This document shows positions 5,304 through 59,582 of a stretch of DNA of 64,000 nt, piece by piece. The position numbers and the translations under genes are program-made. Each line of letters begins with the position of its first letter. Position 1 is the stretch's first letter. The notes beneath the pieces were generated by a model, which saw only the letters and a list, made by a program, of their open reading frames with translations, was not told the DNA's origin and made no database searches. This DNA is from Planctomycetia bacterium (GTDB lineage: Bacteria > Planctomycetota > Phycisphaerae > UBA1845 > UTPLA1), in the NCBI GenBank assembly GCA_015075745.1, contig JABTTW010000001.1:1612001-1676000 (forward strand). The letters run 5' to 3'.

Positions 5304-6845
5304 CTATTCCTTGCCGGAGGGGGTGGCCTCCGCGCTGTCGGATGACTTGCCCAGGGGTCGCTGGAGCGGGAACAGAATCACGTCTCGAATGCTTGGCGAG
5401 TTGGTGAGGAGCATGACCAGGCGGTCGATGCCGACGCCGAGGCCGCCGGCCGGGGGCATGCCGTATTCCAGGGCTTTGATGTAGTCGTCGTCCATGACTC
5501 GCATCGTTTCGTCGCCTTCGCCTGCGAGCTGGGAGCTGAACGTCTCTCGCTGCACGGCCGGGTCGTTCAATTCGGTGTAGGCGTTGCCGATCTCCATCTT
5601 CGCGACGTAGGCCTCGAAGCGCAGGGCGATTTCGGGATCGTCCTTCTTGCGGCGCGTGAGCGGGCAGAGGGCCGCCGGGTATTCGACCACGAAGGTCGGG
5701 GCGACGAGATGCTCCTCGACGGTCGCCTCGAAGACCTTGTTCGCCAGGACGGCAGGATCGACCTCGCCTGCGGGTCCGCCGTCTTTTGTTGTCTCACGCA
5801 ATAGCCCAAGTTCGCCGGCCTTGCGCTTGACGGCGGCGGCGTCTTTCAGATCGACACCGGCGTATTCGCGCAGGAGGTCGCTGTAGGTGCGCCTGGGCCA
5901 CGGCGGGGTGAAGTCGATTTCCTGGCCGCGAAACTGCCGGCGGAAACCACCGCCGAGGGCCTCGATCGACTCTACGACGATGCCCTCGACAATGTTCATC
6001 ATGTCTGACAAATCGCCGTAGGCCTGATAGCACTCCATCATGGTGAATTCGGGGTTGTGCTGGGTGCTGATGCCTTCGTTGCGGAAATTGCGGTTGATTT
6101 CGAAGACGCGTTCCATGCCGCCGACGAGCAGGCGCTTGAGGGACAACTCGGGGCTGATGCGCAGGAACAGGTCCATGTCGAGGGTGTTGTGGTGGGTCGT
6201 GAAGGGGCGCGCGGCGGCGCCGCCGTAGATCGACTGCAGCATCGGGGTCTCGACTTCGAGAAAGCCCTGCTTTGACAGGTGGCGGCGGACGGCCTCGACG
6301 ATGCGCGAGCGGGCCTTGAAGGTCTGCATGACCTCGGGGTTGCTGAAGAGATCGACGTATCGCTCGCGGTAACGGACGTCCACATCGGTAAGGCCGTGGA
6401 ACTTCTCCGGCGGCGGGCGGAGGCTTTTGGAGAGGACGCGCAGCGACACGGCCCAGACGGTGATCTCGTTGGTCTTGGTCCGGCCGAGCAGGCCCTCGAC
6501 GCCGATGATGTCGCCGAGGTCGAGGAGGCCGACGAGTTCCCAGCCGGCGTCGCCGACCTTTGCCTTGGAGATGCCAATCTGGATGTCGCCGGTCCAGTCG
6601 CGGATGGTTAGGAAGGCGAGCTTGCCCATGACGCGACGGAGCATAATCCGCCCGGCGGCGCGGACGGAGGCGGTTTCATCGGTCTGGCCGGGCTCGACGC
6701 CGAGGCGCTCCGCGAAGCTGCGGATGTCGCCGTTGCTGCGGACATCCTCAAAGCGAGCGCCGTAGGGCTCGTGGCCGGCCTCGATCAGCTGGAGGAGCTT
6801 CTTTTTGCGGTCTTCGTAGTACTGGTCGAATTCCTGTGTGCTCAT
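5304..6845 (-). CDS. lysS: Lysyl-tRNA synthetase, class II
   Basis: A 513-residue class II LysRS that charges tRNA-Lys in the cytoplasm. An N-terminal OB-fold anticodon-binding domain (about 60-160) includes GRIMLRRVMGKLAFLTIRDW. The catalytic core has RYRERYVDLFSNPEV, class II motif 2 (FEINRNFRNEGIST then HNPEFTMMECYQAY) and motif 3 (GGLGVGIDRLVMLLTNSPSI). The length matches the bacterial family. About 15 residues after motif 3 (ending SDSAEATPSGKE) are non-conserved. Start at the ATG at 6845. The downstream permease follows after two bases. Confidence 0.97.
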   Translation of the reverse strand: MSTQEFDQYYEDRKKKLLQLIEAGHEPYGARFEDVRSNGDIRSFAERLGVEPGQTDETASVRAAGRIMLRRVMGKLAFLTIRDWTGDIQIGISKAKVGDAGWELVGLLDLGDIIGVEGLLGRTKTNEITVWAVSLRVLSKSLRPPPEKFHGLTDVDVRYRERYVDLFSNPEVMQTFKARSRIVEAVRRHLSKQGFLEVETPMLQSIYGGAAARPFTTHHNTLDMDLFLRISPELSLKRLLVGGMERVFEINRNFRNEGISTQHNPEFTMMECYQAYGDLSDMMNIVEGIVVESIEALGGGFRRQFRGQEIDFTPPWPRRTYSDLLREYAGVDLKDAAAVKRKAGELGLLRETTKDGGPAGEVDPAVLANKVFEATVEEHLVAPTFVVEYPAALCPLTRRKKDDPEIALRFEAYVAKMEIGNAYTELNDPAVQRETFSSQLAGEGDETMRVMDDDYIKALEYGMPPAGGLGVGIDRLVMLLTNSPSIRDVILFPLQRPLGKSSDSAEATPSGKE

Positions 6846-7085: not shown

Positions 7086-10000
7086 ATGAACAGTGGCCGG
7101 TCGGGGATCTTGCGTCTCACATTCTGTCTGGTCGTTGCCCATGGAGCTTCCAAGGCGGCTGCTCAATGCGCATACGATTGGAAGCCAGGAGATGCGTTGC
7201 CCGGCGTTCAAGGGTCAGTTTGTGCCATTACCAATTGGGACCCGGACGGACCCGGTTCAGAACCTCCACTACTCGTAGTTGGCGGACTGTTTTCAAACGC
7301 CGGGGGGCATCCGGCATCCAACATCGCGACGTGGGATGGAGTGGAATGGCAGGCTTTTGAGCCCGGCTTCGACGGCGTCGTTTACTCGCTCATCGTGCAT
7401 AACGGCGAGCTTTATGCAGGGGGCGATTTTACGTCGGCCGGCGGCCTCACAGTGATCGGAGTCGCGAGGTGGGACGGTTCGGCTTGGCGCGAAGTCGGTG
7501 TTGGCTTCCTGAACGGCAGGGTACGTGCCCTGGCAGTTTTCAACGGCGACCTGATTGCCGCCGGTTATTTCACGAATTTTCCTTTTGTGTCTCTAAATGG
7601 AATCGGGCGATGGGATGGAACCAATTGGCACGGACTTGGATTGGGGTTGCGTGGGCAGTCCGCAACCTACGCGCACGCACTTACGGTTCAAGACGACAAT
7701 CTCATCGTCGGGGGTAGTTTTTCGCAGGCAGGATCAGTCTCAGCGAACAACATCGCCCGTTGGGACGGGGCGACGTGGCATAATCTGGGAACCGGCGTTA
7801 ATTCGACGGTCAATGCGCTAACGATCCATAAGAACGAGATCATTGCGGCGGGGACGTTTACCCAGGCCGGTGGAATGGCAGCCAACCGGATCGCAAAATG
7901 GAGTGGAGTCGAGTGGCAGTCGCTGGGCAGCGGATTCGATCAATCTGCACTTGCTCTAAGTTCCCATGGAAATCGATTGTATGCCGGAGGCCCATTCACG
8001 ACTGCCGGCGGTGTGGCAGCTTCAGCGATTGCTGAGTGGGATGGATCATCATGGATTCCACTGGGTGAAGGACTAAGCGGTGACACGTCACAAGCCGTTT
8101 GCGCTTTGTATTCCAGGGATGACCAGCTTTGGGCCGGTGGATATTTCATCAATGCCGGCGGAATGGAGTCCAGAAGCATTGCACGATGGAGCGACGACCA
8201 ATGGCACGCTACATCGTCGAGCTTCAATGGAAGCGTACTCGACGTGCTCTATCATGAGAATTCAATCATTGTTGCCGGCACGTTCACTCGCATCGGAGGC
8301 ATCGAAGTCGGGGGCGTGGCAAGGTGGGATGGTGCAAATTGGCAGCCCATGGGATCACCTCAATACGACGCCGTCAACGATTTGAGGCTCTTTAATAATG
8401 AGTTTTATCTGGCAGGAGATCGACTCAATCAAAACGGTTATCCGCTGGGATCCGTCTCAGTCTGGGACGGAACCAACTGGCAGAGCGTCGGCGGCCAGTT
8501 TGACGGAACCGTGTCGGCTCTGGATGAATTCGGTGGAGCACTTGTCGCCGCGGGACGTTTTTTGTCAGTAGACGGGACGCCCGCATCAAGAGTTGCGTAC
8601 TGGACCGGATCGGCCTGGCAACAACTGGGCAATGGACTGGACGGCTGGATCAACTCGCTTGGGCACTATGGGGGTAAGCTCGTCGCAGGTGGAGGCATTC
8701 CGCATCCGACCGATCCATTTTGTTCCCTTCTTGCTGAGTGGAACGGACAAGTTTGGAGAAAGTTTTCCCAGCAGCAATGGCTGGGTGGTGAGGTCAATTC
8801 GATTCAGACCGTAGGCGATTCTCTTTTTGCGATCGGGCCATTCAAACTAGCGGCCCACGTTGAGGTAAATGGAATTGCTCGGTGGAATGGCTCAAGTTGG
8901 AGCGATTTGGATGGAGGCTGCCCATTCGGAGTGATTTCTGACTTGACGGCATACAACGAGCAATTGATTGTTTCGGGACAATTCGATTACATCGGGAACG
9001 AATTTGCCAACAATGTCGCGGGGTGGAACGGAACATCATGGTTTCCGTTAGGGGAAGGCGTCAACGGCCCCACGATATCGGTCAATCAGGCGGGCCATCA
9101 ATTAATTGCATCCGGCAACTTTTCAATGGCGGGGAGCCATCCCTCCTATCGGCTAGCCTCCTGGGGCCCGGTCAACTGCGATTGCAATAACAACGGGATC
9201 AACGATTTTGATGAGCCCGGATTCGGCGACTGCAATGTCAACGGGTCACCGGATGTCTGCGACCTGGATTGTGATCTGAACGGAGTCCCCGATGACTGCG
9301 AACTCGGCGACGATTGCAATGATTCGGGCGTTCCCGACAGTTGTGAACTTGAGGGAAATGACTGTAACTCCAACGCGATACCCGATGACTGCGAATTGGG
9401 GCCGAACGACTGCGATTCGAACGGCGTGCCTGATGAATGCGACATCGCAATGACTGATTGCAACCAGAATGGATTGGTCGATCGGTGCGAATTGGCGGGT
9501 AACGATTGCAATGCGAATCAAGTACCCGACGACTGTGAATCGGACGTCGATTTGGATGGTGTTATTGATGCTTGCGACAACTGTCCCATGAAGGCAAATC
9601 CTGATCAGGCCGATTTGGAGAGCGACGGATTCGGCGATGCGTGCGACAACTGCCGCCTATTCCCAAATCCAGGCCAGGAGAACAGGGACGGTGACTCCGC
9701 AGGTGATGTGTGCGATCCCTGTCCCGATGACCCATTGAAGGTGGATCCCGGTCTCTGCGGATGCGATGTCCGCGACGACGCGAATGCCGACGGGGATTTC
9801 TACGCAGATTGCATCGATAACTGCCCGTTCATACCCAATGACGATCAGGAGGATTGCGACTTTGACTTCGTCGGCGATATTTGCGAGCGGGATTGCAACT
9901 TCAACTCGATCCCCGACGACTGCGAATCCGTCACGATCGACTGCGACTGCAACTCGAACGGAGTCAACGACGACATCGAACTTGCGGGCCACGACTGCGA

Positions 10001-10430
10001 CGGCAACAGCATGCTGGACGAATGCCAGATTTGTGGCGACTTTGACGTCGACCAGGATGTCGATGGCGCCGACTTCTCGACGTTTCTGCTGGCATATGCC
10101 GCCCAATCGACGGACATTAACTATTTACCATGCGCCGACTACGACACCGACGGTGCGATCACGCTGGTCGATTATCAAAGCTGGCTTGCCTGCTACCGCG
10201 CGTGGGTCGGCAGCAGCATCGCCGCTCCGCCCATCCCGGCGGACATCGGCGACATGAACGCCGACGGATTTATCAATGGACTTGACGTTCAGCCCTTCGT
10301 TGACACCGTTCTGTGGCCGTCAGGCGCGGGCCTGCGAAACCGGATCATCGCCGACATGGATGGCAGCGGAACGGTCACACCGGGCGATATCCCGCTTTTC
10401 GTCGAAGTGATGCTGAGCCCAGCGGAGTGA
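7086..10430 (+). CDS. Exported 14-blade propeller-repeat protein with Ca-binding stalk and dockerin-like tail
   Basis: A 1114-residue protein with a signal peptide (cut near the AAAQCAYDW region, about residue 26). Residues about 60-695 are fourteen repeats of roughly 45 residues patterned L(Y/I)AGGxFTxAGGxxAxxIARWDGxxWxxLG; fourteen suggests two seven-bladed propellers. Residues about 698-820 are short Asp/Cys repeats such as DCNSNAIPDDCE, followed by thrombospondin type 3-like segments (DACDNCPMKANPDQAD) that should bind calcium. The C terminus (about 1055-1112) is a dockerin-like pair: GDMNADGFINGLDVQPFVD and ADMDGSGTVTPGDIPLFVE. It is followed 52 bases later by a PEP-CTERM, cohesin-like protein on the same strand. 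No enzyme motif was seen, so binding or display is more likely than catalysis. Confidence 0.85.
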   Translation: MNSGRSGILRLTFCLVVAHGASKAAAQCAYDWKPGDALPGVQGSVCAITNWDPDGPGSEPPLLVVGGLFSNAGGHPASNIATWDGVEWQAFEPGFDGVVYSLIVHNGELYAGGDFTSAGGLTVIGVARWDGSAWREVGVGFLNGRVRALAVFNGDLIAAGYFTNFPFVSLNGIGRWDGTNWHGLGLGLRGQSATYAHALTVQDDNLIVGGSFSQAGSVSANNIARWDGATWHNLGTGVNSTVNALTIHKNEIIAAGTFTQAGGMAANRIAKWSGVEWQSLGSGFDQSALALSSHGNRLYAGGPFTTAGGVAASAIAEWDGSSWIPLGEGLSGDTSQAVCALYSRDDQLWAGGYFINAGGMESRSIARWSDDQWHATSSSFNGSVLDVLYHENSIIVAGTFTRIGGIEVGGVARWDGANWQPMGSPQYDAVNDLRLFNNEFYLAGDRLNQNGYPLGSVSVWDGTNWQSVGGQFDGTVSALDEFGGALVAAGRFLSVDGTPASRVAYWTGSAWQQLGNGLDGWINSLGHYGGKLVAGGGIPHPTDPFCSLLAEWNGQVWRKFSQQQWLGGEVNSIQTVGDSLFAIGPFKLAAHVEVNGIARWNGSSWSDLDGGCPFGVISDLTAYNEQLIVSGQFDYIGNEFANNVAGWNGTSWFPLGEGVNGPTISVNQAGHQLIASGNFSMAGSHPSYRLASWGPVNCDCNNNGINDFDEPGFGDCNVNGSPDVCDLDCDLNGVPDDCELGDDCNDSGVPDSCELEGNDCNSNAIPDDCELGPNDCDSNGVPDECDIAMTDCNQNGLVDRCELAGNDCNANQVPDDCESDVDLDGVIDACDNCPMKANPDQADLESDGFGDACDNCRLFPNPGQENRDGDSAGDVCDPCPDDPLKVDPGLCGCDVRDDANADGDFYADCIDNCPFIPNDDQEDCDFDFVGDICERDCNFNSIPDDCESVTIDCDCNSNGVNDDIELAGHDCDGNSMLDECQICGDFDVDQDVDGADFSTFLLAYAAQSTDINYLPCADYDTDGAITLVDYQSWLACYRAWVGSSIAAPPIPADIGDMNADGFINGLDVQPFVDTVLWPSGAGLRNRIIADMDGSGTVTPGDIPLFVEVMLSPAE
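7263..9170 (+). repeat. Fourteen tandem propeller-blade coding repeats
   Basis: Fourteen degenerate units of about 135 bases encode the blade pattern ending WDGxxWxxLG. Examples are ARWDGSAWREVG, ARWDGATWHNLG, AEWDGSSWIPLG and ARWNGSSWSDLD. The repeats are recognisable in protein but have diverged at the DNA level, so this is old duplication, not a recent expansion. Confidence 0.8.
9178..9545 (+). repeat. Short Asp/Cys Ca-binding coding repeats
   Basis: About eight units of 12-16 codons with the core DCNxNxxPDDCE (for example DCDLNGVPDDCE, DCNDSGVPDSCE, DCDSNGVPDECD, DCNANQVPDDCE). Acidic oxygen ligands at alternating positions plus paired Cys suggest a rigid calcium-stiffened, disulfide-linked stalk between the propellers and the dockerin-like tail. 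Confidence 0.7.
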
Positions 10431-10482
10431 TTCTGAATCAAGGATGCGACGTGATCCGAGAGGCTAAGGTAAGGAGCACAAC

Positions 10483-11031
10483 ATGAGGGGAGGATTCATC
10501 ACGTTCACTGCGTTGGCGATGATCGGCGTCTGGGCAGGCGACTTGCGCGCCAGCATCTGCCCGACCGATGTCTGTGTCCGCATGGAGCTTGACGAACAGA
10601 TCATTGTCGAAGGCGGCTACTTCTCCGTGAACATCGTCGCCGACATCAACGTTCCCGTTGTCGGTTGGGGAATCGATCTTAGGCTTACTCCGGAATCGGC
10701 GATCGCACTGGCCGGCTTGCCGAGTATCGGTTCAGCGTGGGTACCATCCCCCTCGGCTGACGGCGACGGACTCGCTGCCCTGGCCTTTCCGAATGCCATC
10801 ACGGGCAATGATATTCTGTTGGCTACGGTAGACCTGCAGGCGATCTCCATCGGGGATGCTGAACTGAGCATCGAGACAACGATCGGAGACTTGACCGAAG
10901 GATTCGCACGCGATCCGATGGGTTTTGCATCGCTTAACGCCACGCCGGCGTACGTCACCGTCATTCCCGAGCCCGCCGCATTTGCCTTGCTTTGCTTCGC
11001 AGGGCTTTTGCTTCGCCCGCGCAAGATGTAA
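10483..11031 (+). CDS. PEP-CTERM protein with cohesin-like domain
   Basis: A 182-residue exported protein: signal peptide at 1-22, a beta-rich domain at about 28-155, and a C-terminal sorting signal VIPEPAAFALLCFAGLLLR with a basic end (PEP motif, TM helix, Arg). The domain follows the cohesin plan by eye: EGGYFSVNIVADI, then VVGWGIDLRLTPES, then a long loop, then NDILLATVDLQAISIGDAEL. PEP-CTERM proteins are processed by exosortases in other bacteria; no exosortase is in this window. A good AAGGAG Shine-Dalgarno precedes the ATG. It directly follows the dockerin-tailed propeller gene, which makes a receptor/ligand pair plausible. The cohesin assignment is inference from pattern; a generic carbohydrate-binding or immunoglobulin-like fold is the alternative. 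Confidence 0.7.
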   Translation: MRGGFITFTALAMIGVWAGDLRASICPTDVCVRMELDEQIIVEGGYFSVNIVADINVPVVGWGIDLRLTPESAIALAGLPSIGSAWVPSPSADGDGLAALAFPNAITGNDILLATVDLQAISIGDAELSIETTIGDLTEGFARDPMGFASLNATPAYVTVIPEPAAFALLCFAGLLLRPRKM

Positions 11032-11102: not shown

Positions 11103-12278
11103 TTACTGGGTGTCGGGGGATTTTTCGCGCGTGCCGGCGTAGAGCTCGTACTTGAGCAATCGGCACTCGATCTTGGCATTCCAGAAGATCAGCTTGCGGC
11201 TGGTTCGCAGGCCGATGCGTTTGGCCAGTTCGCGATTTCCGGTGAAGATGCATCCGACGTAGCCCTGGCACTGCTTCTTGAGGAAATCGCCGATCCGCTT
11301 GTAGGTTCTTTCCAGCTCCGCCGAGTCGCCCATTCGCTGGCCGTATTCGGCGTTCATGATCACGACGCCGGGCGGCGGTGGGACGGGGGTATCGGCGAAA
11401 TCGCAGACGTGAAACTCGATCAGGTGATCGACGCCGGCGGTCTTTGCATTCTGTTTTGCGGCGCTCACGGCCTCGGGGCTGATGTCGGAGGCGACGATCG
11501 GCGCGGGCTTTGCCTTGCGTCTCTGCTTGCCTGATTCGACGCGCAGGTCCTTCCACACTTTCTCGTCGAAACCTCGGATGTGCATCAGTCCGAAGTTCGA
11601 TCGCAAGAGGCCCGGCGCGCGGTTGGCGGCGAGGAGGGCCGCTTCAATGGCGAGTGTTCCGCTGCCGCACATCGGATTCACGAAGGGGGTGCTGCCATCG
11701 TAGCCACTTGCGAGGACGACGCCGGCGGCGAGGGTCTCGGTCATCGGGGCTTTGAAGGGAATGCGCCGGTATCCGCGATCGGAAAGCTTGCCGCCGCTTG
11801 TGTTGAGGTAGATCCAGCAGTAGTCGTTTCGCCAATAGGTGTTGATGACGATGCCGTGGCGTTCGGGGCCACTGGACGGGCGCGCTCCGACCTGATCCTG
11901 CATGCGATCGACTACCGCGTCCTTGACGCGCTGATTGACATACATCCAGTTGTCGATGGAGGGGTGGTCGCCACGGGAATCGACGCAGATGTAGCCATCC
12001 GGCGGAATGATGTCTTCCCAGGCGATGGTCGAGGCGTGGGTGTAGAGGTCTTCGGGACCGGTGCAGGGGAACTCCTTGAGCAGGTAGAGCACCGAGATGG
12101 CGGTTCGCATGCGCAGGTTGAGGGCCATGCAGTCGCGCAAGGAACCGGTGAGCTCGACGCTGGTCTCGTGGACGGCGGTCGGGGCGTGGCCCAGGTCGTT
12201 TAGTTCCGCCTCGACGTAGGGGGCGAGGCCGGGGGCAGTGGTGATGCGCAGGTCGTTCTTTGTGTCCAGTTGAAGCAT
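11103..12278 (-). CDS. THUMP-domain SAM-dependent RNA methyltransferase
   Basis: A 391-residue protein when started at the ATG at 12278, which has a GGAAG Shine-Dalgarno 4 bases upstream. The reading frame is open further, to 12437, but those 53 residues look non-coding in character. The N-terminal THUMP region (ITTAPGLAPYVEAELNDLGH and following) binds RNA; the C-terminal Rossmann fold has PMCGSGTLAIEAALLA and a later VASDISPEAVSAAKQNA (SAM site). The family (YpsC/RlmL-like) makes N2-methylguanosine in rRNA. The usual catalytic NPPY motif is replaced here by NAEYG in VVIMNAEYGQRMG, which is unusual. It converges on the cohesin-like gene. Confidence 0.85.
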   Translation of the reverse strand: MLQLDTKNDLRITTAPGLAPYVEAELNDLGHAPTAVHETSVELTGSLRDCMALNLRMRTAISVLYLLKEFPCTGPEDLYTHASTIAWEDIIPPDGYICVDSRGDHPSIDNWMYVNQRVKDAVVDRMQDQVGARPSSGPERHGIVINTYWRNDYCWIYLNTSGGKLSDRGYRRIPFKAPMTETLAAGVVLASGYDGSTPFVNPMCGSGTLAIEAALLAANRAPGLLRSNFGLMHIRGFDEKVWKDLRVESGKQRRKAKPAPIVASDISPEAVSAAKQNAKTAGVDHLIEFHVCDFADTPVPPPPGVVIMNAEYGQRMGDSAELERTYKRIGDFLKKQCQGYVGCIFTGNRELAKRIGLRTSRKLIFWNAKIECRLLKYELYAGTREKSPDTQ

Positions 12279-12653
12279 GATTCTTCCGGGGTTGCCGGGG
12301 ATATTGCCGGCTACGCGGGTCAGAGTGTAAGCGATCGAGCGGCGCGGCAGGCGCGAGGGCAGAGCGAAGTCGGCTGAGAATGGGAAACCCGGAAAAGACG
12401 AACAGTCGCCCGGGACGCACCGCCAGGCGATCGGCACCGTCCATGGACTGGCTGGAGATGCCTTGATAACCCAACTTTGCGGAAGGAACTGTAGGGTGAA
12501 GGCCTGACAAAACGAACGTTTGGGGCGTCATGGCCCAGTCGTTCAAGGGCGTTAAAAGGTGGTAATTGAGCCCAGAATCGAGTATAAATGCAGTAGCGAG
12601 CCGGCCCCGGAGTGGGCAAAGTTCCCCGATTTTCTTGTCGGTATGGAGATTCA
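12279..12653. other. Intergenic region between divergent genes
   Basis: A 375-base gap between the methyltransferase (leftwards) and the choice-of-anchor B gene (rightwards). It holds a near-consensus -10, TATAAA, at 12583-12588 on the plus strand, without a good -35 at 17 bases, and a small AAACGAACGTTT inverted repeat near 12510-12521. The plus-strand gene has GGAG at 12645-12648. I see no gene here. Confidence 0.5.
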
Positions 12654-14999
12654 ATGACGAGTTCTCAACGTCTCACTTCGTCGTTATTGGTACTTGCAAT
12701 CTGCTCAATCTGCTTAGCCCATCCGGACGATCCCAAGCTTCTCGATCGACAGGCTCCCTTTGTCGGGGCGAGCTATCGCCTTGGCGTGGATGGGCCGGCG
12801 GACCCTCGCGGCAGCGGCTTTGCGTCCAGCAATGTGACGCTTCATAGCTGGATCACCCTGTCGGATATTGCTGCTTTCTCGGGGACGACTGTTTCTTCCG
12901 GCAACGACTGCTGGGGCTACACGTCGCCTTCCGGCCGGGAGTATGCCCTGGTCGGGGTCAACTCGGGGCTGTGTTTCGTGGAGATCACCAATCCGGATAA
13001 CGCCCAGATTATCTGGTTCATCCCCGGCCCAGATAGTTTGTGGCGCGACGTGAAGGTGTATCAGAACTACGCCTATGTGGTGTCCGAGGGCGGCAGCGGA
13101 ATCCAGGTCATCAGCATGGCGAATATCGACCAAGTGACCAATCGCATATCGCTCGTCGGCACGGTCACGACCGGCGGCGGCGTGGCGACACATAACGTCG
13201 CCCTCAACACGGACAGCGGCTATCTGTACCGGTGCGGCGGCGGATCGAACGGGATTCGCATTTACAGCCTGGCGAATCCGGCGAGCCCGACGTATGTGAC
13301 GTCCTGGTCGGACCGCTATGTGCACGATTGCCAGGTGGTGACGTACACGACGGGTCCGCTGGCGGGGCACGAGATTGCGTATCTCTGCTCGGGCAACAAT
13401 GGCGGCGGGACGAATACGGGCCTGGACATTCTCGACGTGACGGACAAGAACAACATCGTCAATCTTTATCCGACGCGGATTACGTGGCCGAGCGCGGCGT
13501 ATTCGCACCAGGTCTGGCTGTCACCCGATCTGAAGTACGCCTATATCAATGACGAACTGGACGAGACGGGCAGCACGCTGACGCGGACAATGGTGGTGGA
13601 CGTGCAGTTCATGATTGACGAGAACGTCGCGGCCCCGTTTCTCGCGTCGACGTTTAACGGGACCAGCGTCGCGATCAATCACAATCTCTACACCAAGGAC
13701 GACCTGATCTATGAAGCAAACTATCGCAGCGGACTTCGCGTCTTCTGCACGACGGCGGACCCGCTGAACCCTGAGGAGATCGCTTACTTCGACACCTATC
13801 CGGGCAGCGACTCGGCGAATTTCAACGGCGCGTGGAGCAATTATCCGTACTTCCCCAGCGGCAACGTCATCATCAGCGACCTGGAGCGTGGGCTCTTTGT
13901 CGTATCGGTACAGGTACCGGGCGAGAGTCTTTCGTTTGGATTTCCGCAGGGCAAGCCGTCGATCGTTTCGCCGGCGGAGGGCACGAGCTTTGCCGTTTCC
14001 GTCGGGGCGGGCGCCTGCACGGCGACGGATGTCCTGCCGGGCACGGAGATGCTGCACTACGACATCGGCAACGGACTGGTCACTGTGCCGTTGATTGAGA
14101 ACGGCGGCGACTTCATCGCAACGATTCCTGCGAGCCCGTGCGGTGAATTCATCAGCTATTACTTCTCCGCACAGTCGGAGTCGGCTACCACCTATCTGGA
14201 CCCGCCTGGCGCGCCGGGCGTGACCTATACGGCGCTCAGCGAACTTGGGGAGATCGCCGGTCCGGTGGACAATTTCCAGACGGATACGGGCTGGACGACG
14301 GCGGTCGTCGGGGCGACGTCGGGCGGCTGGCAGCGCGGCGTACCCATCGTGGACACCGGCTGGCCTTACTCACCGTTTTTTGACTCGGATGGCAGCGGTC
14401 AGTGCTATGTGACTCAAAACGGCTTCGGCAATACCGACGTGGACAACGGCGCGGTTCAGCTTATTTCTCCGCCGCTCGATATGTCGGGCGAGGATAATGC
14501 GATAACGTTTGACTATTACCTGTACCTGAGCGATTCGCAGACGACCGATCGATTGCTTGTTGAGGTCAACTCCAACAATGGCGTGGGTCCGTGGACGACG
14601 ATCTTCACTGATTACTCCAGCGGCGGCCGCAACTGGCGAAACAAGAAGATTTACGCGACGGAGCTTGCCGCGGCGGGCGTGACGCTGACCTCGACGATGA
14701 AGCTGCGATTCACGGTCAATGACAGCACGCCGCAGGGTGTTGTAGAGGGCGGCATCGACGCGGTCGGCCTGTTCCATCTTGACTGCTTTGTGCCTGTCAC
14801 GTGTACGAAGGGCGACGTGACCGACGATGGTTTTGTGAACGGCAACGACATTCAGCCGTTTGTCGACGTCCTCTTTGGAAGCGCGACGCTGGGGACGGTC
14901 GAGTTTTGTGCGGCGGACATGAATGACAGCGGCGACGTCGAGGCGACCAACGATCTGTCCATGATGGTGGACTGCCTCGTGAACGGCGTTTGCCCGTAA
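12654..14999 (+). CDS. Exported choice-of-anchor B family protein with dockerin-like C-terminus
   Basis: A 781-residue protein starting at the ATG at 12654 (GGAG five bases upstream, followed by a clean signal peptide ending near CLAHPDDP). An ATG 42 bases earlier is in frame but would bury the signal peptide. Residues about 30-425 match the choice-of-anchor B pattern: NVTLHSWITLSDI, a GNDCWGYTSPSGREYALVG segment, and repeated LVIVD-like units predicted to form a propeller. Residues about 430-510 and 530-715 are beta-sandwich-like. The C terminus carries GDVTDDGFVNGNDIQPFVD followed by a second half ADMNDSGDVEATNDL, a dockerin-like pair. The role is probably surface display or scaffold; no catalytic motif is visible. 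Confidence 0.85.
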   Translation: MTSSQRLTSSLLVLAICSICLAHPDDPKLLDRQAPFVGASYRLGVDGPADPRGSGFASSNVTLHSWITLSDIAAFSGTTVSSGNDCWGYTSPSGREYALVGVNSGLCFVEITNPDNAQIIWFIPGPDSLWRDVKVYQNYAYVVSEGGSGIQVISMANIDQVTNRISLVGTVTTGGGVATHNVALNTDSGYLYRCGGGSNGIRIYSLANPASPTYVTSWSDRYVHDCQVVTYTTGPLAGHEIAYLCSGNNGGGTNTGLDILDVTDKNNIVNLYPTRITWPSAAYSHQVWLSPDLKYAYINDELDETGSTLTRTMVVDVQFMIDENVAAPFLASTFNGTSVAINHNLYTKDDLIYEANYRSGLRVFCTTADPLNPEEIAYFDTYPGSDSANFNGAWSNYPYFPSGNVIISDLERGLFVVSVQVPGESLSFGFPQGKPSIVSPAEGTSFAVSVGAGACTATDVLPGTEMLHYDIGNGLVTVPLIENGGDFIATIPASPCGEFISYYFSAQSESATTYLDPPGAPGVTYTALSELGEIAGPVDNFQTDTGWTTAVVGATSGGWQRGVPIVDTGWPYSPFFDSDGSGQCYVTQNGFGNTDVDNGAVQLISPPLDMSGEDNAITFDYYLYLSDSQTTDRLLVEVNSNNGVGPWTTIFTDYSSGGRNWRNKKIYATELAAAGVTLTSTMKLRFTVNDSTPQGVVEGGIDAVGLFHLDCFVPVTCTKGDVTDDGFVNGNDIQPFVDVLFGSATLGTVEFCAADMNDSGDVEATNDLSMMVDCLVNGVCP

Positions 15000-16958: not shown

Positions 16959-18947
16959 CTATGGGCAGGCCGGGTTGGGATCGCCGATGCCGAGGGTCTT
17001 GTCCACGAAGAGCTGGCCGTCGATCGCAAGGTCCAATATGCCGTCGCCGTCCATGTCGGCGCAGTGACAGCCGGGTGCGATGATCGGCGCGGGGCCGGCC
17101 ATCAGGCAGTTCACAAAGTTCTGGATGTCCAGCGCGTTGACGAAGTTATCGCCGTCCATGTCGCCGCGGCAGGTCGGGCACAGTGGAGGTAAACCCGGCG
17201 CCTCAATCGCGCCGACGTCGCATTCCGCGGTGCCGTTGCCATCGCCGTCGGTCGGCCGCGGGTTGGAACACTGATCATCCATGATGATGTTTCCCGCTAA
17301 GTCGAAACATGCTCCCCGATCGACGGCCGGGCTTGTCGGGGCAGGGAAGTGGGCTTGCAGATTGCCACAGGCGGTCAGTGTTGAGAGCTGTGTCGCGATG
17401 GGCGAGCCGATGGTGCCGAATTGATCGGACGCCGTCGGGATCATGCCTGTTCCGTCGACATTGATGTTGCGGCCGGCGGAATTGATCGGCGAGAGCGCCA
17501 CGACGTTATTGCCGGGCAGCGAGGGTGCGCTGTCGATGATCGACCCCAGGACGTCCATGACGCTGACCGACCCGGACGTGTTTCCATTGAACAAACTGTC
17601 ACCGGACGATGCCCGATTGGCGACGAATGTGCATGCGCTGAGCTCACATCGGGCGCTGAAATCGTTTTCGATGGCGCCGCCGAAACCCGACGGGGCGGAG
17701 TTTCCGCTGAAGGTGCAGTTCACCGCGCTGAACATGCCCAACGGGTTCTGGTTGTACAGGGCTCCGCCACCCGCGGCGTTGATGATCAGACCACCGGACC
17801 GGTTGCCGCTGAATTCGCAGTGAGAGGCCGTCGCGGTTCCGGCGTTGGCGATTGCCCCGCCCAGGTTGGTGGCTGTGTTGGCCCGCAGCGCCGTTGAATT
17901 GAGGACGAGGGTGCAGCCGAACTGGTTATTGATTGCCCCGCCGCCGTTGTCGGCCTGGTTGTCGGCAATATATGAGAATGACGTCGGCAGGAAGGACAGG
18001 GTGCCGCTGTTCTGATTGGCAAATGCCCCGCCGTTGCCGCCCCCGGTCGCCCGGTTGAGCGCGGCGATGAGGAAGTCGATGGTCGTGATGCCGGAATTGG
18101 CGATGCCGCCGCCCTGCGTCGCTTCGTTGAATTGAATGACCACGTCGGACATGATCGCCGTGGCGCCTCCGGCGATTCGCGCCGCGCCGCCGCGATTACC
18201 GGCGACGTTGTCTTCGCCGAAAATGCCGCCGTTGAACGTGGCCGGTCCGGAGAGGTACAAGCCGCCGCCGTCGTCACCGGCATCGTTGTTGCGCATTGTC
18301 AATGAGGACAAGAATTGAACTGTGACATCCCGGTCGGACCACAGTCCGCCGCCGTCCAGCGTGGCGGCGCAATCCTGAATCTCAAAATTCTGAAGTTCCA
18401 GTCGCATGCCCCCCTGCATCAAGACTCCGCCGCCGTTGCTGCCGGTCGCTCCGGAGGCATCGCCGTCGCGAATCGTCAAACCCGAGAGGCGTACGATCAA
18501 ACCGCTCGGGGCGGTGCTGGGGATGTGAAAGATGCGATCGCGATTGGGCGGCAGGGGAAGTCCGGCGCAGGAGATAATGGTATTCCCGCCGCCATTTCCA
18601 TTGATGTTGAGTTCGGTCAGCCCGGCGACGGGATTGATGTCAAGGTCGCCGACGAGGCATGCGTCATCGGCGCCGGCGCGGGTCAGGAAATGAAAACCGT
18701 TGACGGCAAAATGAATGTCAACAATACCCGAGACCTGATTCGCCTCCATGATGGCGGCCCGAAGCGAACACAATCCGTTCGCGTCGAGGCACAGGCCGTC
18801 GCCGGGATTCGTGTCGGTCGAATCGGCCAGGGTGTTGACGATGTAGGTGGATTGTGCAGCGGCGCGATCCGCCTGCCATGTCATTAACATCGCCGTCGAT
18901 ACGAGAAAGAGCCCGGAATAGCGGGAAACTGACGTAAAGAATTGCAT
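16959..18947 (-). CDS. Exported right-handed beta-helix protein with dockerin-like C-terminus
   Basis: A 662-residue protein with a signal peptide (about 1-31, ending near DRAAAQ) and the N-terminal block GDGLCLDANGLCSLRAAIMEAN, typical of CSLREAI-type beta-helix proteins. Residues about 110-480 are parallel beta-helix coils rich in Gly/Asn: GGGLYLSGPATFNGG, NQADNGGGAINNQ and similar. The end has GDMDGDNFVNALDIQNFVN and ADMDGDGILDLAIDGQLFVD, a dockerin-like pair. A strong GGGAGGA Shine-Dalgarno precedes the ATG at 18947, and a TACAAT -10-like sequence lies about 20-30 bases further upstream. The fold suggests adhesion or polysaccharide binding; no lyase catalytic residues can be assigned. Confidence 0.85.
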   Translation of the reverse strand: MQFFTSVSRYSGLFLVSTAMLMTWQADRAAAQSTYIVNTLADSTDTNPGDGLCLDANGLCSLRAAIMEANQVSGIVDIHFAVNGFHFLTRAGADDACLVGDLDINPVAGLTELNINGNGGGNTIISCAGLPLPPNRDRIFHIPSTAPSGLIVRLSGLTIRDGDASGATGSNGGGVLMQGGMRLELQNFEIQDCAATLDGGGLWSDRDVTVQFLSSLTMRNNDAGDDGGGLYLSGPATFNGGIFGEDNVAGNRGGAARIAGGATAIMSDVVIQFNEATQGGGIANSGITTIDFLIAALNRATGGGNGGAFANQNSGTLSFLPTSFSYIADNQADNGGGAINNQFGCTLVLNSTALRANTATNLGGAIANAGTATASHCEFSGNRSGGLIINAAGGGALYNQNPLGMFSAVNCTFSGNSAPSGFGGAIENDFSARCELSACTFVANRASSGDSLFNGNTSGSVSVMDVLGSIIDSAPSLPGNNVVALSPINSAGRNINVDGTGMIPTASDQFGTIGSPIATQLSTLTACGNLQAHFPAPTSPAVDRGACFDLAGNIIMDDQCSNPRPTDGDGNGTAECDVGAIEAPGLPPLCPTCRGDMDGDNFVNALDIQNFVNCLMAGPAPIIAPGCHCADMDGDGILDLAIDGQLFVDKTLGIGDPNPACP

Positions 18948-19080
18948 GAATTCCTCCCTACCGATCCTGAATGTTTATTGTACCACAGGCGCCCCCCCGT
19001 CCTTGCATCGAGGAGACGCTATTTGCTGCCAATGGCAACGATCTAGAGGGGCAAGCGACGGAATCCCCCCCGTCCGGCGC

Positions 19081-26665: not shown

Positions 26666-29035
26666 TTATAGCCCCAAGGCCGTGACGAAGCTGGGGACGT
26701 CGGCGATGTCAACCATATTGAGGCCGTCGAAGTCGCCACAGGCGCAATTCCCGCCGGAGACGCCGGTCAGGAGGCAATCGACGAACGGCTGGACATCGAG
26801 GGCGTCGATGAAGGTGTCCTCGTTGAGGTCGCCGAGCAGATTACACGACGGCACGATGGAGATGATCCCGTTCGCACTGGTGATCGACTGACCGTCGGGA
26901 TTGGTCACGGTGATGGATCGGGGACCGACGGCCGCGGCGACAGAGACGGTCAGATTCAGGGTGATTGTGGTGGGGTCGGTGAAGGTGACGCTATTGACCG
27001 TGACATCGCCTCCGCTGACCGATGTGGAGATGTGGTTGGGATAGCTGACATCGGGATCGAAGAAGCCGGAGCCGCTGACGACAGTTCCGGTGACGACGAC
27101 ATTCTCGTTTGAAGCACCGACCGGAAGCGTCGGCGGGAAGGCGGAGGTCGGGTCGGCCGGCGGGGGAGCGATGAGCTGAATGATGCGTGTGGCCCAACTG
27201 TTGGTGGCGTTGCAGTATTCCTGGGCTGTCCACAAAGTCATTCCGTCAACGGGATCGAGGCTGGTGGAAGAATAGTCTCCCCAGCGCTGAACGCCGCCTT
27301 CGGCGTTGTAATTAAAAGTCGTGCCCTCGGCGATGATCGACGTCTGAAGCGTACCGAGCGGGTCATCGTTGTGGCGACCGGCGACGGCAATCTCGGCGCG
27401 TCGCGCATCGCCGCCCACGGAGCAGCCCAGCGCGGCATGGCCCTGTTCGTTCATCGCAATTGAGGGAACCCAGTAACGATCGAAATTCGAGGCCGCGTCG
27501 TCGAAAACGGTGCCGGCCTGACGAACGACCGGAGATGTCGTGAGGTCCTCAATCTCATACCAGCGTGAGCCGATGCGATTGCCCGAACTGGTCGCCACGC
27601 CCGTCGCGGACACGCGGAAGCTGTGTGCGGTCCACAGGGTTCGCAAGCCGGTAAGCTGGTTATGGAAGATCGTGGCCACAAAGAGCCGATCGTCCAACGC
27701 ATCGAGCGGTGCGGTGCTTCCAAGAACGGGCACCGCCGTCGGATTATTCGTGGTCGGCACGCCCCCCACGAAGATGTTTCCTGAGATCGACGGTTTTCCG
27801 CCCGGATCGGAAACGCGCCGCATGACGAGTTGGTTCAAGAAGCTATTGCTGGGACCGATGAAATACCCCTCGGTCGCCGAAGGGTCGTCATTCTGCACGC
27901 CGCGCGGGGCGAACGGGCCCTGGCCGAAGCCGTTGGCGATCCGGCGGAAGGCGCTTACGACGATGGGCCCGCCGCTGAGAACCGAACTCTTGCGAACGAC
28001 CCATGCGCTGGTGCCGGCGAAGCCCGGTGCGAACATGTTGGCCCCAATATAGAGGGCGTTATTGTCAACGCCGAGGCTGGGATAGTCGGCGAAGGCGCCG
28101 GTGTCAGCATTGGGGGTGGCGCCGACGAGATCCTGCTGGAAGAAATAGAAGGTGAAGCTGGATAGCGTGGTGATAATCGAGGTGTTGCTGACGGCGATCA
28201 CGATGCGATTCGGCGTGGAACCGGTAATGGCAATGACGAACCAGCGATTCGTCAGTCGATCGTAGCGAACCCACGGATCAGCGACGATGGAGCCGCCGCG
28301 AACACTGTTGAAGAAAGTGTTGAGACTGGTGCTGAGTCCATCGGCGACGCCTGTCTTCGTAAAGACCTTGATTCGGCCGTTGGCGATGGCGACGATCTGC
28401 GTCAGTCCCACGTCGGCATTGGTATCCGGCGGAACGTACCCCGACTGATTACTGGGCACGCCAATGAATTCGACGCCGGTGGTCTGCGGAATACGCGGGG
28501 TGACGCCCTGTCGATCGGGGGATTCGCCGGCTTCATTGCTGGTTTCCTCCAGTTGCCGGGGAGGCCACTGCGAAACGGCGGGGCTGTCGGAGGCGGGATC
28601 GAGGTGTCGTCTCCAGGGCGTTTCGTGCTCCTCAAGGGCGATGAAATCCTCCGAGGTGAAGCGCGGCTGGGGGGACGCGTTGTCGCGGATCATAATCTCT
28701 TCGACGGTCTCGGTGATGCCTGGCTCTCCGATCCAGAGTTCGCCGGGGCGATAGAAGTTCGGATCGGCATTGGCGGCCTCGAGGGCGGCGATCTCTTCGG
28801 GCGACTGAACATACTGAGGCACGGCGTCGGCCGGCTGCTTGCCGGTTTCATCGAGCAACTCGCCGCCGCGCGGGAAGGCGAGGCGGAGTTCGCCGGCATT
28901 CAGTTGACCGTCGCCGTTGGCATGGGTCGCGACTTGCGGCTGGACGGCAGGTCCGGTCGCGTCGGAATGAGAGCACGCGGGAACCAGTAGAAGTAATGCG
29001 AAAAAGACGCCCTTGGAAATGATTCGCCAAGCCAT
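26666..29035 (-). CDS. Large lipoprotein with TIG-like domain and dockerin-like tail
   Basis: A 789-residue lipoprotein: LLLVPACS lipobox with Cys21. The middle (about 190-590) is a beta-rich, propeller-like exported domain with segments such as DPWVRYDRLTNRWFVIA and TGAFADYPSLGVDNNALYIG. A TIG/IPT-like domain follows (about 630-730; GPRSITVTNPDGQSIT). The end has GDLNEDTFIDALDVQPFVD and GDFDGLNMVDIADVPSFV, a dockerin-like pair. A lipid anchor at the N terminus and a dockerin-like tag at the C terminus in one protein is unusual. The nearest gene downstream is the SurA-like gene on the same strand with a 204-base gap. Confidence 0.75.
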   Translation of the reverse strand: MAWRIISKGVFFALLLLVPACSHSDATGPAVQPQVATHANGDGQLNAGELRLAFPRGGELLDETGKQPADAVPQYVQSPEEIAALEAANADPNFYRPGELWIGEPGITETVEEIMIRDNASPQPRFTSEDFIALEEHETPWRRHLDPASDSPAVSQWPPRQLEETSNEAGESPDRQGVTPRIPQTTGVEFIGVPSNQSGYVPPDTNADVGLTQIVAIANGRIKVFTKTGVADGLSTSLNTFFNSVRGGSIVADPWVRYDRLTNRWFVIAITGSTPNRIVIAVSNTSIITTLSSFTFYFFQQDLVGATPNADTGAFADYPSLGVDNNALYIGANMFAPGFAGTSAWVVRKSSVLSGGPIVVSAFRRIANGFGQGPFAPRGVQNDDPSATEGYFIGPSNSFLNQLVMRRVSDPGGKPSISGNIFVGGVPTTNNPTAVPVLGSTAPLDALDDRLFVATIFHNQLTGLRTLWTAHSFRVSATGVATSSGNRIGSRWYEIEDLTTSPVVRQAGTVFDDAASNFDRYWVPSIAMNEQGHAALGCSVGGDARRAEIAVAGRHNDDPLGTLQTSIIAEGTTFNYNAEGGVQRWGDYSSTSLDPVDGMTLWTAQEYCNATNSWATRIIQLIAPPPADPTSAFPPTLPVGASNENVVVTGTVVSGSGFFDPDVSYPNHISTSVSGGDVTVNSVTFTDPTTITLNLTVSVAAAVGPRSITVTNPDGQSITSANGIISIVPSCNLLGDLNEDTFIDALDVQPFVDCLLTGVSGGNCACGDFDGLNMVDIADVPSFVTALGL

Positions 29036-29370
29036 GAATGCTCCCCGTGTGGGAGGGGTGTAATCCGAGGTCTGACTCGCAATTAATGGGAACCCACGAT
29101 CAGAAGCTCGGAAATTCAGAAGTGACGGCGGGAGAGATCCCCGGTGGAGGTTGCGCTAGAACCTCGATATCGCCCACCCCTGTCTTCCAGTCCTCCATGG
29201 TACCCATATTCGTGGCTCAGACCAAGATTTCGAGCGTGCCATCGCGCGCGAAACGGGGCATTTTGAGCCGCAAAACGCTGCTCTTGCGGGCTTGGTGGGC
29301 CTGTGCAATAATGTCGGGCTTTCCAGAATTGGGTCACGGCACAAGCCGAACGACAGCGGAGCCTTTTGTC
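29036..29370. other. Intergenic region and rplU leader
   Basis: A 335-base gap between divergent genes. A promoter-like TTGCGG (29284-29289), a 17-base spacer and AATAAT (29307-29312) point to rplU; the -10 matches consensus at five of six positions. The rplU Shine-Dalgarno CGGAG is at 29357-29361. I saw no gene, and no evident autogenous L21 leader structure, though structure cannot be excluded by eye. Confidence 0.45.
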
Positions 29371-58209: not shown

Positions 58210-59331
58210 TTAGATGCAGAGGACAAGGTTTACGAACGCGGAGATGTCGAGGCCGTTGGTGTCGCCGTCATCGTTGACGTCCGCATTCATCGTGTCGCAG
58301 TTGGGGTGACTGGCGGCGTAGCCCGCCGGGTCGATCAGCAGTTGAACAAACCCGTCCAGGTCCTCCAGGCTGACGTGTCCGTCGCAGTTGGCGTCGCCGG
58401 AGAGCGGCAGGAACATGAGAAACACGACCCCGTTGAGCCCCCCGCTGCCTGAAGGAATGAACGTCCCCAGGTTTGAGCCGTCCTGTCCGCTGAATTTGAC
58501 CACTGAGTTGTTGGCGATGCTGGCGACGTAGATGTTATTGTCGGCCCCGATGGCCATGCCGGTCGGCGCCGTGATCGAGGGAATGAAGCGATCGATGAAG
58601 GCGCCCGTCGTCGCGTTGTAGCGATGCACGCGATTAGCCTGCTCAGCGTTGACGAGCACCTCGTTGCAACCGTAACGAAACAGAATCGTGCGCGGGCGAC
58701 TGAGGAGAGTCAGACCCACCCCGCTTGCGATATAGGTGTTAATGAAAGCGCCGGTCCCACCGTTGTATCTGAGCACGCGATTGCTGAAGTACGAGGGCAC
58801 ATACAGATTGCCGTCAATGCCGAAGATCATCCCCGCATCCGGCCCGTTCAGGGTGTTGGCGCCGGTGGGCACAAACACATTGAGAAACGCGCCGGTCGTG
58901 CCGTCATAGCGAAGGACGGAATCATTATCGAAACTCGCCACGTAGAGGTTGCCGTCGGGTCCAAACACCGCCGTGGTCGGACCGTTGAGCCCGCCGGTCT
59001 CGTCCACCATCGGCGTACCGGGATCGTCGAAGATAAACTCGTCGATATAGGCGAAAGTCTGCCGGTCGTAGCGCAGGACTTTGTTCGATTCCTCGCAGCT
59101 GACGTAGAGCCGTCCATCCGGTCCGACCGTCACGCCGAGCGGGCCGTCCATATCGCCGCCCGGTCCGAGGTCGCCGATGTATGCGCCGGTCGTCGCGTCG
59201 TAGCGGTGCACCTGGTCGGAGTTAAACCCGCTGGCCAGCAGCACGCCACCGGCGATGGCCGGGGTGGCGCATAGTCCAATAGTCACGATGACGGCGATGC
59301 AGAATGCGAGGCGGTTGCCAATAGACGCCAT
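58210..59331 (-). CDS. Exported NHL-like propeller with dockerin-like C-terminus
   Basis: A 373-residue protein started at ATG 59331 (GGAGG eight bases upstream; signal peptide MASIGNRLAFCIAVIVTIGL). Blades repeat LRYDGTTGAFLNVF / NGPTTAVFGPDGNLYVASFDND-type units (NHL/SMP-30-like), about six. The C terminus has GDANCDGHVSLEDLDGFVQ and ADVNDDGDTNGLDISAFVN, a dockerin-like pair. Sensing or scaffolding on the surface is more likely than catalysis. A frame open further upstream (to 59511) is rejected as it lacks a signal sequence. Confidence 0.82.
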   Translation of the reverse strand: MASIGNRLAFCIAVIVTIGLCATPAIAGGVLLASGFNSDQVHRYDATTGAYIGDLGPGGDMDGPLGVTVGPDGRLYVSCEESNKVLRYDRQTFAYIDEFIFDDPGTPMVDETGGLNGPTTAVFGPDGNLYVASFDNDSVLRYDGTTGAFLNVFVPTGANTLNGPDAGMIFGIDGNLYVPSYFSNRVLRYNGGTGAFINTYIASGVGLTLLSRPRTILFRYGCNEVLVNAEQANRVHRYNATTGAFIDRFIPSITAPTGMAIGADNNIYVASIANNSVVKFSGQDGSNLGTFIPSGSGGLNGVVFLMFLPLSGDANCDGHVSLEDLDGFVQLLIDPAGYAASHPNCDTMNADVNDDGDTNGLDISAFVNLVLCI

Positions 59332-59582
59332 GGCCTGGTCCTCCAAGATGAGAGTCGGCGCGCACCTTCCCCTTAAGTAGCGCCGTCCGGCGTGTTGCGA
59401 TTCGTTCCGGCATGTCCGACCGACTCGGAATCCGTGAATTCCTGAGTCGTTCTGGGTATACTCAACGAGGATCAGTGCCTCGCCGGTCCCGCCGAATACA
59501 GAAGCGCACACCGTCGGCCCGCGCGGCCAAAATTTTTTCCGCCCGGCCGGCGATTAACTGACAAACGCTCCTGAGAACCACC

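Follow-up and report, generated by a model that had tools for sequence, protein, structure and literature searches.

Surface-anchored cohesins that hold dockerin-bearing proteins are known from several bacteria. ScaE of Ruminococcus flavefaciens is an exported protein with one cohesin and a C-terminal sorting signal that fixes its dockerin partners to the cell, and OlpA, OlpC and SdbA of Clostridium thermocellum are surface cohesins that bind dockerin proteins, with SLH anchoring and within a scaffoldin network; we know of no one-to-one operon partner for any of these three. Here we analyze two adjacent genes in a 64,000-nucleotide stretch (hereafter the window) of the 5.0-Mb genome of a Planctomycetia bacterium (assembly GCA_015075745.1, contig JABTTW010000001.1, positions 1,612,001 to 1,676,000, forward strand), which encode a dockerin-bearing propeller protein of 1114 residues and a PEP-CTERM protein of 182 residues with a predicted cohesin core. 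The two genes quite probably form a dedicated dockerin-cohesin pair that mounts an extracellular protein, in which the small protein would bind the large one. It is best read as a single-cohesin anchor in a new variant, which relies on an exosortase and has a dockerin partner of its own.

Comparison with described systems

Anchoring by sortase has been described for scaffoldins of Ruminococcus (PMC11557425). The small protein in the window resembles ScaE in combining a single cohesin with a C-terminal sorting signal, and its core also matches the solved ScaE cohesin (2zf9) in fold. Scaffoldins of the ScaE type, however, depend on a Gram-positive LPXTG sortase, reside in the cell wall and carry cellulosomal cargo, whereas the window pair combines an exosortase signal with a diderm host, one dedicated partner encoded directly upstream and, across its relatives, mostly non-cellulolytic cargo. 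The C. thermocellum surface cohesins share the fold (3ul4, 4dh2, 2bm3). The best structural matches to the core are non-cellulosomal cohesins of Clostridium perfringens glycoside hydrolases (2vo8, 2jh2, 2w1n), which, unlike the window cohesin, are part of the enzyme itself and lack a sorting signal.

For freshwater Planctomycetes, the accessible part of one description puts forward a hypothetical planctosome with cohesin-dockerin modules, non-cellulosomal cargo, TSP3 repeats and P-domains; its proposed anchor is a lamin-tail protein of 2,210 amino acids and its cargo consists of peptidases, and that part of the text contains neither a PEP-CTERM cohesin nor an adjacent gene pair (PMC6461901). 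Anaerobic methanotrophic (ANME) archaea encode many non-cellulosomal dockerins and cohesins of unassigned role alongside archaeosortase signals; the accessible portions of these two reports contain multi-cohesin, scaffoldin-like proteins but no dedicated, sorted single cohesin beside its dockerin protein (PMC9012536, PMC5244752). We found no paper combining PEP-CTERM and dockerin in the open-licence literature, although an earlier description elsewhere is possible. A first-pass annotation of the window had suggested a new use of the cohesin-dockerin pair; this stands for the exosortase-based variant, but single anchored cohesins and the hypothetical planctosome were already known.

A distant cohesin family with a PEP-CTERM tail

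The 182-residue protein has a core of about 137 residues between a signal peptide and a PEP-hydrophobic-basic tail, and scans against Pfam and NCBIfam gave no match for this core. The AlphaFold2 model of the core (predicted local distance difference test, pLDDT, 94.2; predicted TM-score, pTM, 0.88) shows the nine-strand jelly-roll of cohesins. Foldseek ranked cohesins first with this model (top match 2jh2, a cohesin-like module, E 2.3e-7), and cohesins occupied ranks 1-49 of the best 50 Protein Data Bank (PDB) entries in VIA-align, led by 2vo8 (Z 15.1; 2.2 Å over 126 residues). The predicted fold agrees with the cohesin plan that the first-pass annotation had read into the core.

The core had no match to PF00963, and the best E value among 24 family members was 0.052, for one of the 24. 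By profile-profile alignment with hhalign, the family matched the PF00963-type cohesins of related genomes at 94% (E 1e-7), and these in turn matched solved cohesins down to E 3e-15 in profile searches. The missing PF00963 match together with the profile-profile result indicates a distant, separate cohesin family. When the family profile was searched directly against the PDB, the best-ranked match was a cellulosomal cohesin, but at an E value of no better than 0.31, and a single-sequence search of the genome contigs with the window protein yielded no match. The family motifs DGDGLAGLAFP and DLTEGF differ from those of classical cohesins, and G63 and D65 of the cohesin are invariant. Pattern scans worked with a 6-row alignment, whereas the 27 rows of the larger family alignment differed too much for this purpose. 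Typical members contain one cohesin each. Weak Pfam links of single members, such as to the chagasin-like Inhibitor_I42, were taken as chance. Judged by its model, the 182-residue protein is a previously unannotated single-cohesin protein.

The PEP-CTERM ending proposed earlier holds up: an N-terminal signal peptide is combined with PEP, a hydrophobic stretch and a basic RPRKM end, and PF07589 is matched by 13 of 27 family members, the window protein itself scoring 12.4 bits, below the Pfam cut-off. The genome contains two EpsH-type exosortases (210 and 178 bits) and 44 PEP-CTERM matches.

Some relatives have a different architecture. At L022/L108 and L032/L118 the family cohesin lies N-terminally in large GACC-repeat proteins with no PEP-CTERM directly after it, and the L032 protein has a Dockerin_1 domain in addition.

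The inner of two tandem dockerins is conserved and is the proposed partner

The first-pass annotation had described the large protein as a propeller on a calcium-rich stalk, which agrees with its matches to Rax2 (E 8.6e-21), DUF5122 and, below the cut-off, TSP_3. It had also noted a dockerin-like C-terminus (GDMNADGFINGLDVQPFVD). The motif is present, but it is the second of two tandem dockerins and the only one that had been named. A whole-protein Pfam scan detected the C-terminal repeat alone (Dockerin_1, 12.6 bits), while the genome-wide Dockerin_1 search matched both repeats, one of them above the cut-off when neighbours were counted. Two F-hand calcium loops (DxNxDGxxxxxD), each with a following helix, are present, as in type I-like dockerins.

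A generic dockerin profile was built from the window's genome alone and applied to the surroundings of cohesin homologues, found in loci mostly labelled Phycisphaerae or Planctomycetota. In 45 of 57 loci it detected a dockerin gene that immediately precedes the cohesin gene in the same orientation, or a dockerin that shares an open reading frame (ORF) with the cohesin. These upstream dockerins share a subtype, GDLDGDGDVDxDDYxxFLAAFG...YNxxADYDGDGxITFVDYQxWLxCYR. With a profile of this subtype, partners scored 45-100 bits (25 for one truncated by a frameshift) and the other dockerins examined in the window's genome below 24; against solved structures the profile matched dockerins (2y3n_B, E 3.9e-11). 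The inner repeat of the window protein scored 83.9 bits and the C-terminal one 7.2, so the inner repeat is the conserved pair dockerin. The C-terminal repeat, suggested at first as the cohesin partner, is of the genome's common type and is not supported in that role.

A subtype dockerin lay upstream of the family cohesin, on the same strand and within 1.5 kb, in 44 of 54 loci; at L096, L098 and L108 it is internal to the adjacent upstream gene. Among loci fetched later and kept out of profile construction, five of six had it upstream, and the overall pairing amounts to 52 of 60 independent loci. Thirty other PEP-CTERM loci served as a control; 6 of them followed a dockerin gene, four of the six belonging to one further PEP-CTERM family. 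The window's genome contains exactly one match to the subtype (positions 10032-10208, E 5.8e-26) and exactly one copy of the cohesin family, side by side. This single-copy arrangement and the control rule out chance adjacency. About fourteen partners have the tandem arrangement; others have a lone subtype dockerin near the C-terminus.

We detected the cohesin family in 39 of 150 relatives, and the subtype dockerin (E <= 1e-14) in 34 of these 39 vs 10 of the 111 others (Fisher p 1.6e-19, a statistic that ignores phylogeny). Few genomes outside planctomycetes carry the family, which occurred in 4 of the 193 genomes of one class and in 1 of the 246 genomes of one phylum. In bins labelled Desulfurivibrio, Deltaproteobacteria, Nitrospira and Proteobacteria, all subtype dockerins that were found are encoded immediately ahead of the cohesin, in one gene or more; since these non-planctomycete genomes are metagenome bins, some labels may be wrong.

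The locus L085 (3536-8445) is a three-gene version, with two consecutive subtype dockerin genes followed by one cohesin gene. The PEP-CTERM family that recurred in the control (WFEA...DCD...W.I...GWS.DL...EFGGND) also directly follows dockerin genes, for instance at C1:621806-622537 of the window's genome (G000; L150, L175); its other loci are L151, L153, L157, L176-L178, L181, L182, L184, L185 and L187. With an hhalign value of 6.8% against the cohesin family, which is suggestive only, it may be a second, more distant socket.

A docked model of a related pair

At L085 the dockerin and cohesin genes share a reading frame and are separated by one stop codon only, and we modelled the read-through product (TAA=G) with a 34-row alignment. 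In the AlphaFold2 model of 235 residues, dockerin and cohesin both reached a pLDDT of about 97, the linker (residues 74-92) stayed below 50, and pTM was 0.83. With d0 about 5.7 Å for 235 residues, we estimate that pTM would be about 0.6 if the position of the dockerin were undetermined; the higher value despite a disordered linker indicates a confident prediction of how the two domains lie relative to each other. A fold search with this model listed the cohesin half alone and hence carries no information on the interface. The model shows compatibility of dockerin and cohesin, not specificity.

Cargo and sorting signal are exchanged

The domains of the upstream partners vary widely and include RCC1 and Rax2 propellers, PKD, PASTA, CARDB, DUF11, GEVED, MAM, P-domain, TSP1, beta-helix and subtilase. 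The earlier statement that the dockerin partner is not a hydrolase therefore holds for the window's cargo but not for the system, in which some partners have subtilase domains. Two partners, L081 7647-9881 (Desulfurivibrio bin) and L086 7463-9715 (Deltaproteobacteria bin), combine four CxxCH haem motifs with a dockerin and are possible surface-mounted c-type cytochromes. Cellulosome anchoring scaffoldins are a poor description of the family, in which a single cohesin is typical and the partners are propellers, PKD/PASTA/CARDB proteins, cytochromes, subtilases and beta-helices. The cohesin tails are mostly PEP-CTERM, with VPLPA-CTERM in L086 and IPTL-CTERM in L084, these two above curated cut-offs. 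The dockerin subtype and the cohesin stay constant while the cargo and the exosortase signal change, a pattern that would be expected of a mounting module.

Proposed mechanism and alternative explanations

In the mechanism that we propose, the propeller protein would be secreted via its signal peptide, with the specific dockerin near its C-terminus. The small single-cohesin protein encoded downstream would likewise leave the cytoplasm, and an exosortase, recognising the PEP-CTERM tail, would direct it to the outer surface or the exopolysaccharide matrix. There it would bind the pair-specific inner dockerin, presumably in a calcium-dependent manner, and so tether propeller and stalk. PEP-CTERM proteins have been linked to exopolysaccharide, and it has been proposed that cleavage releases them from the membrane and that they travel outward together with it (PMC1569441), so that "surface" tethering may mean the matrix.

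A cohesin fold, a dockerin gene directly upstream and conservation of this arrangement far beyond chance make a dockerin-cohesin display pair the best explanation, yet several observations weigh against it besides the phylogeny-blind co-occurrence statistic. At seven to eight loci no subtype dockerin adjoins the cohesin (for example L075, L076, L087, L101, L118 and L136). Subtype dockerins outnumber cohesins in G062 (29 v 2) and G070 (28 v 1), and ten genomes have the subtype with no recognised cohesin, so the pairing is not strictly one-to-one. At L077, L080, L089, L093 and L095, non-planctomycete dockerin proteins either carry a hydrophobic CGLLGIEP...RRRR tail of their own or overlap or share an ORF with the cohesin, where anchoring cannot be the sole role of the cohesin. 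AlphaFold2, moreover, may dock any cohesin onto any dockerin.

The surplus in G062 and G070 would fit a cohesin that serves as a general surface receptor for many dockerin proteins encoded elsewhere, including the common NGLDIQPFVD type; about 107 Dockerin_1 matches were found in the window's genome at a loose threshold, and those examined mostly have an NGLDIQPFVD-like recognition helix. We consider this unlikely, because only one dockerin of that genome is of the pair subtype, the subtype is confined to the pair in the four non-planctomycete genomes, and G038 contains seven family cohesins rather than one receptor. That the cohesin-fold domain instead binds an exopolysaccharide glycan, the genes being neighbours because both products reach the same matrix, gains something from the exopolysaccharide link of PEP-CTERM proteins and from family motifs that are not those of classical cohesins. 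Cohesins, too, lie within a wider carbohydrate-binding-like superfamily. Glycan binding would nevertheless leave unexplained why neighbours with otherwise different domains have one dockerin subtype, and also the docked L085 model, and it appears distinctly improbable. Least credible of all is that the dockerin merely caps or stabilises its own protein as an intramolecular calcium fold, with adjacency reflecting shared regulation: many dockerin proteins of the window's genome do lack an adjacent cohesin, but subtype-specific pairing and co-occurrence speak against it.

Returning to the display pair, the exosortase-delivered single cohesin probably serves, in diderm bacteria of several phyla, as the dedicated socket of a single dockerin-tagged surface protein encoded together with it. 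Such modular display would keep the cohesin-dockerin pair and exchange the cargo and the sorting signal, and in some versions the cargo would be extracellular c-type cytochromes. Since the same gene pair occurs in many bacteria with different cargo, bacteria beyond the cellulose-degraders probably mount surface proteins by such plug-and-socket pairs. Planctomycetes and other non-cellulolytic bacteria encode many dockerins and PEP-CTERM proteins of unexplained purpose, and the pair connects both kinds of protein, names specific partners and domains, and predicts that diderm bacteria mount surface proteins by a cohesin. Further gains are a cohesin family missed by Pfam and NCBIfam and a stock of natural partner proteins on which display and assembly work can draw.

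Organization of the locus

Both ORFs were found as first annotated, 52 bases apart. The flanking genes, lysS-like (5304-6845) and RlmL-like (11103-12437), are on the opposite strand, which leaves the cargo and cohesin genes as an isolated co-directional pair. Promoter and terminator scans of the locus gave scores scarcely above those of shuffled sequence.

Table 1. Features of the dockerin-cohesin gene pair (window positions)
Feature	Position	Strand	Basis
Cargo protein gene, 1114 amino acids (aa): signal peptide, beta-propeller, Asp/Asn/Cys-rich stalk, two tandem dockerins	7086..10430	+	ORF list, Pfam, dockerin searches
Mature N-terminus and beta-propeller region, about aa 27-695	7164..9170	+	Rax2/DUF5122 stretches; propeller limits inferred from sequence
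Stalk, DCNxNGxPDxC / TSP3-like calcium-type repeats	9171..10028	+	TSP_3 6.8e-5, below cut-off; sequence
Inner dockerin, pair-specific subtype (CGDFDVDQDVDGADFSTFLLAYAAQSTDINYLPCADYDTDGAITLVDYQSWLACYRAWV), proposed cohesin partner	about 10029..10208	+	Pair-dockerin profile
C-terminal dockerin, common NGLDIQPFVD type of the genome	10245..10412	+	Generic profile, 77.6 bits
Ribosome-binding-site-like AAGGAG, just 5' of cohesin gene ATG	10470..10476	+	Sequence motif
Single-cohesin PEP-CTERM protein gene, 182 aa	10483..11031	+	ORF list, homologue family
Cohesin core, aa 27-163 (137 aa)	10561..10971	+	AlphaFold2 model, fold searches, hhalign
PEP-CTERM sorting signal, VIPEP-AAFALLCFAGLLL-RPRKM	10960..11028	+	Tripartite sequence; Pfam sub-threshold

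Further dockerin proteins are encoded nearby and elsewhere in the genome. A choice-of-anchor B family protein (12612-14999; TIGR04312, 300 bits) ends in a dockerin of the common type, here NGNDIQPFVD, and more dockerin ORFs lie on the minus strand of the window at 16962-18974, 26669-29155 and 58213-59553. At C2:490000-500500 (L139) of the same genome, large proteins with cohesins and dockerins are clustered, some with both domains in one ORF and one cohesin above the PF00963 cut-off; this cluster is a separate cohesin system.

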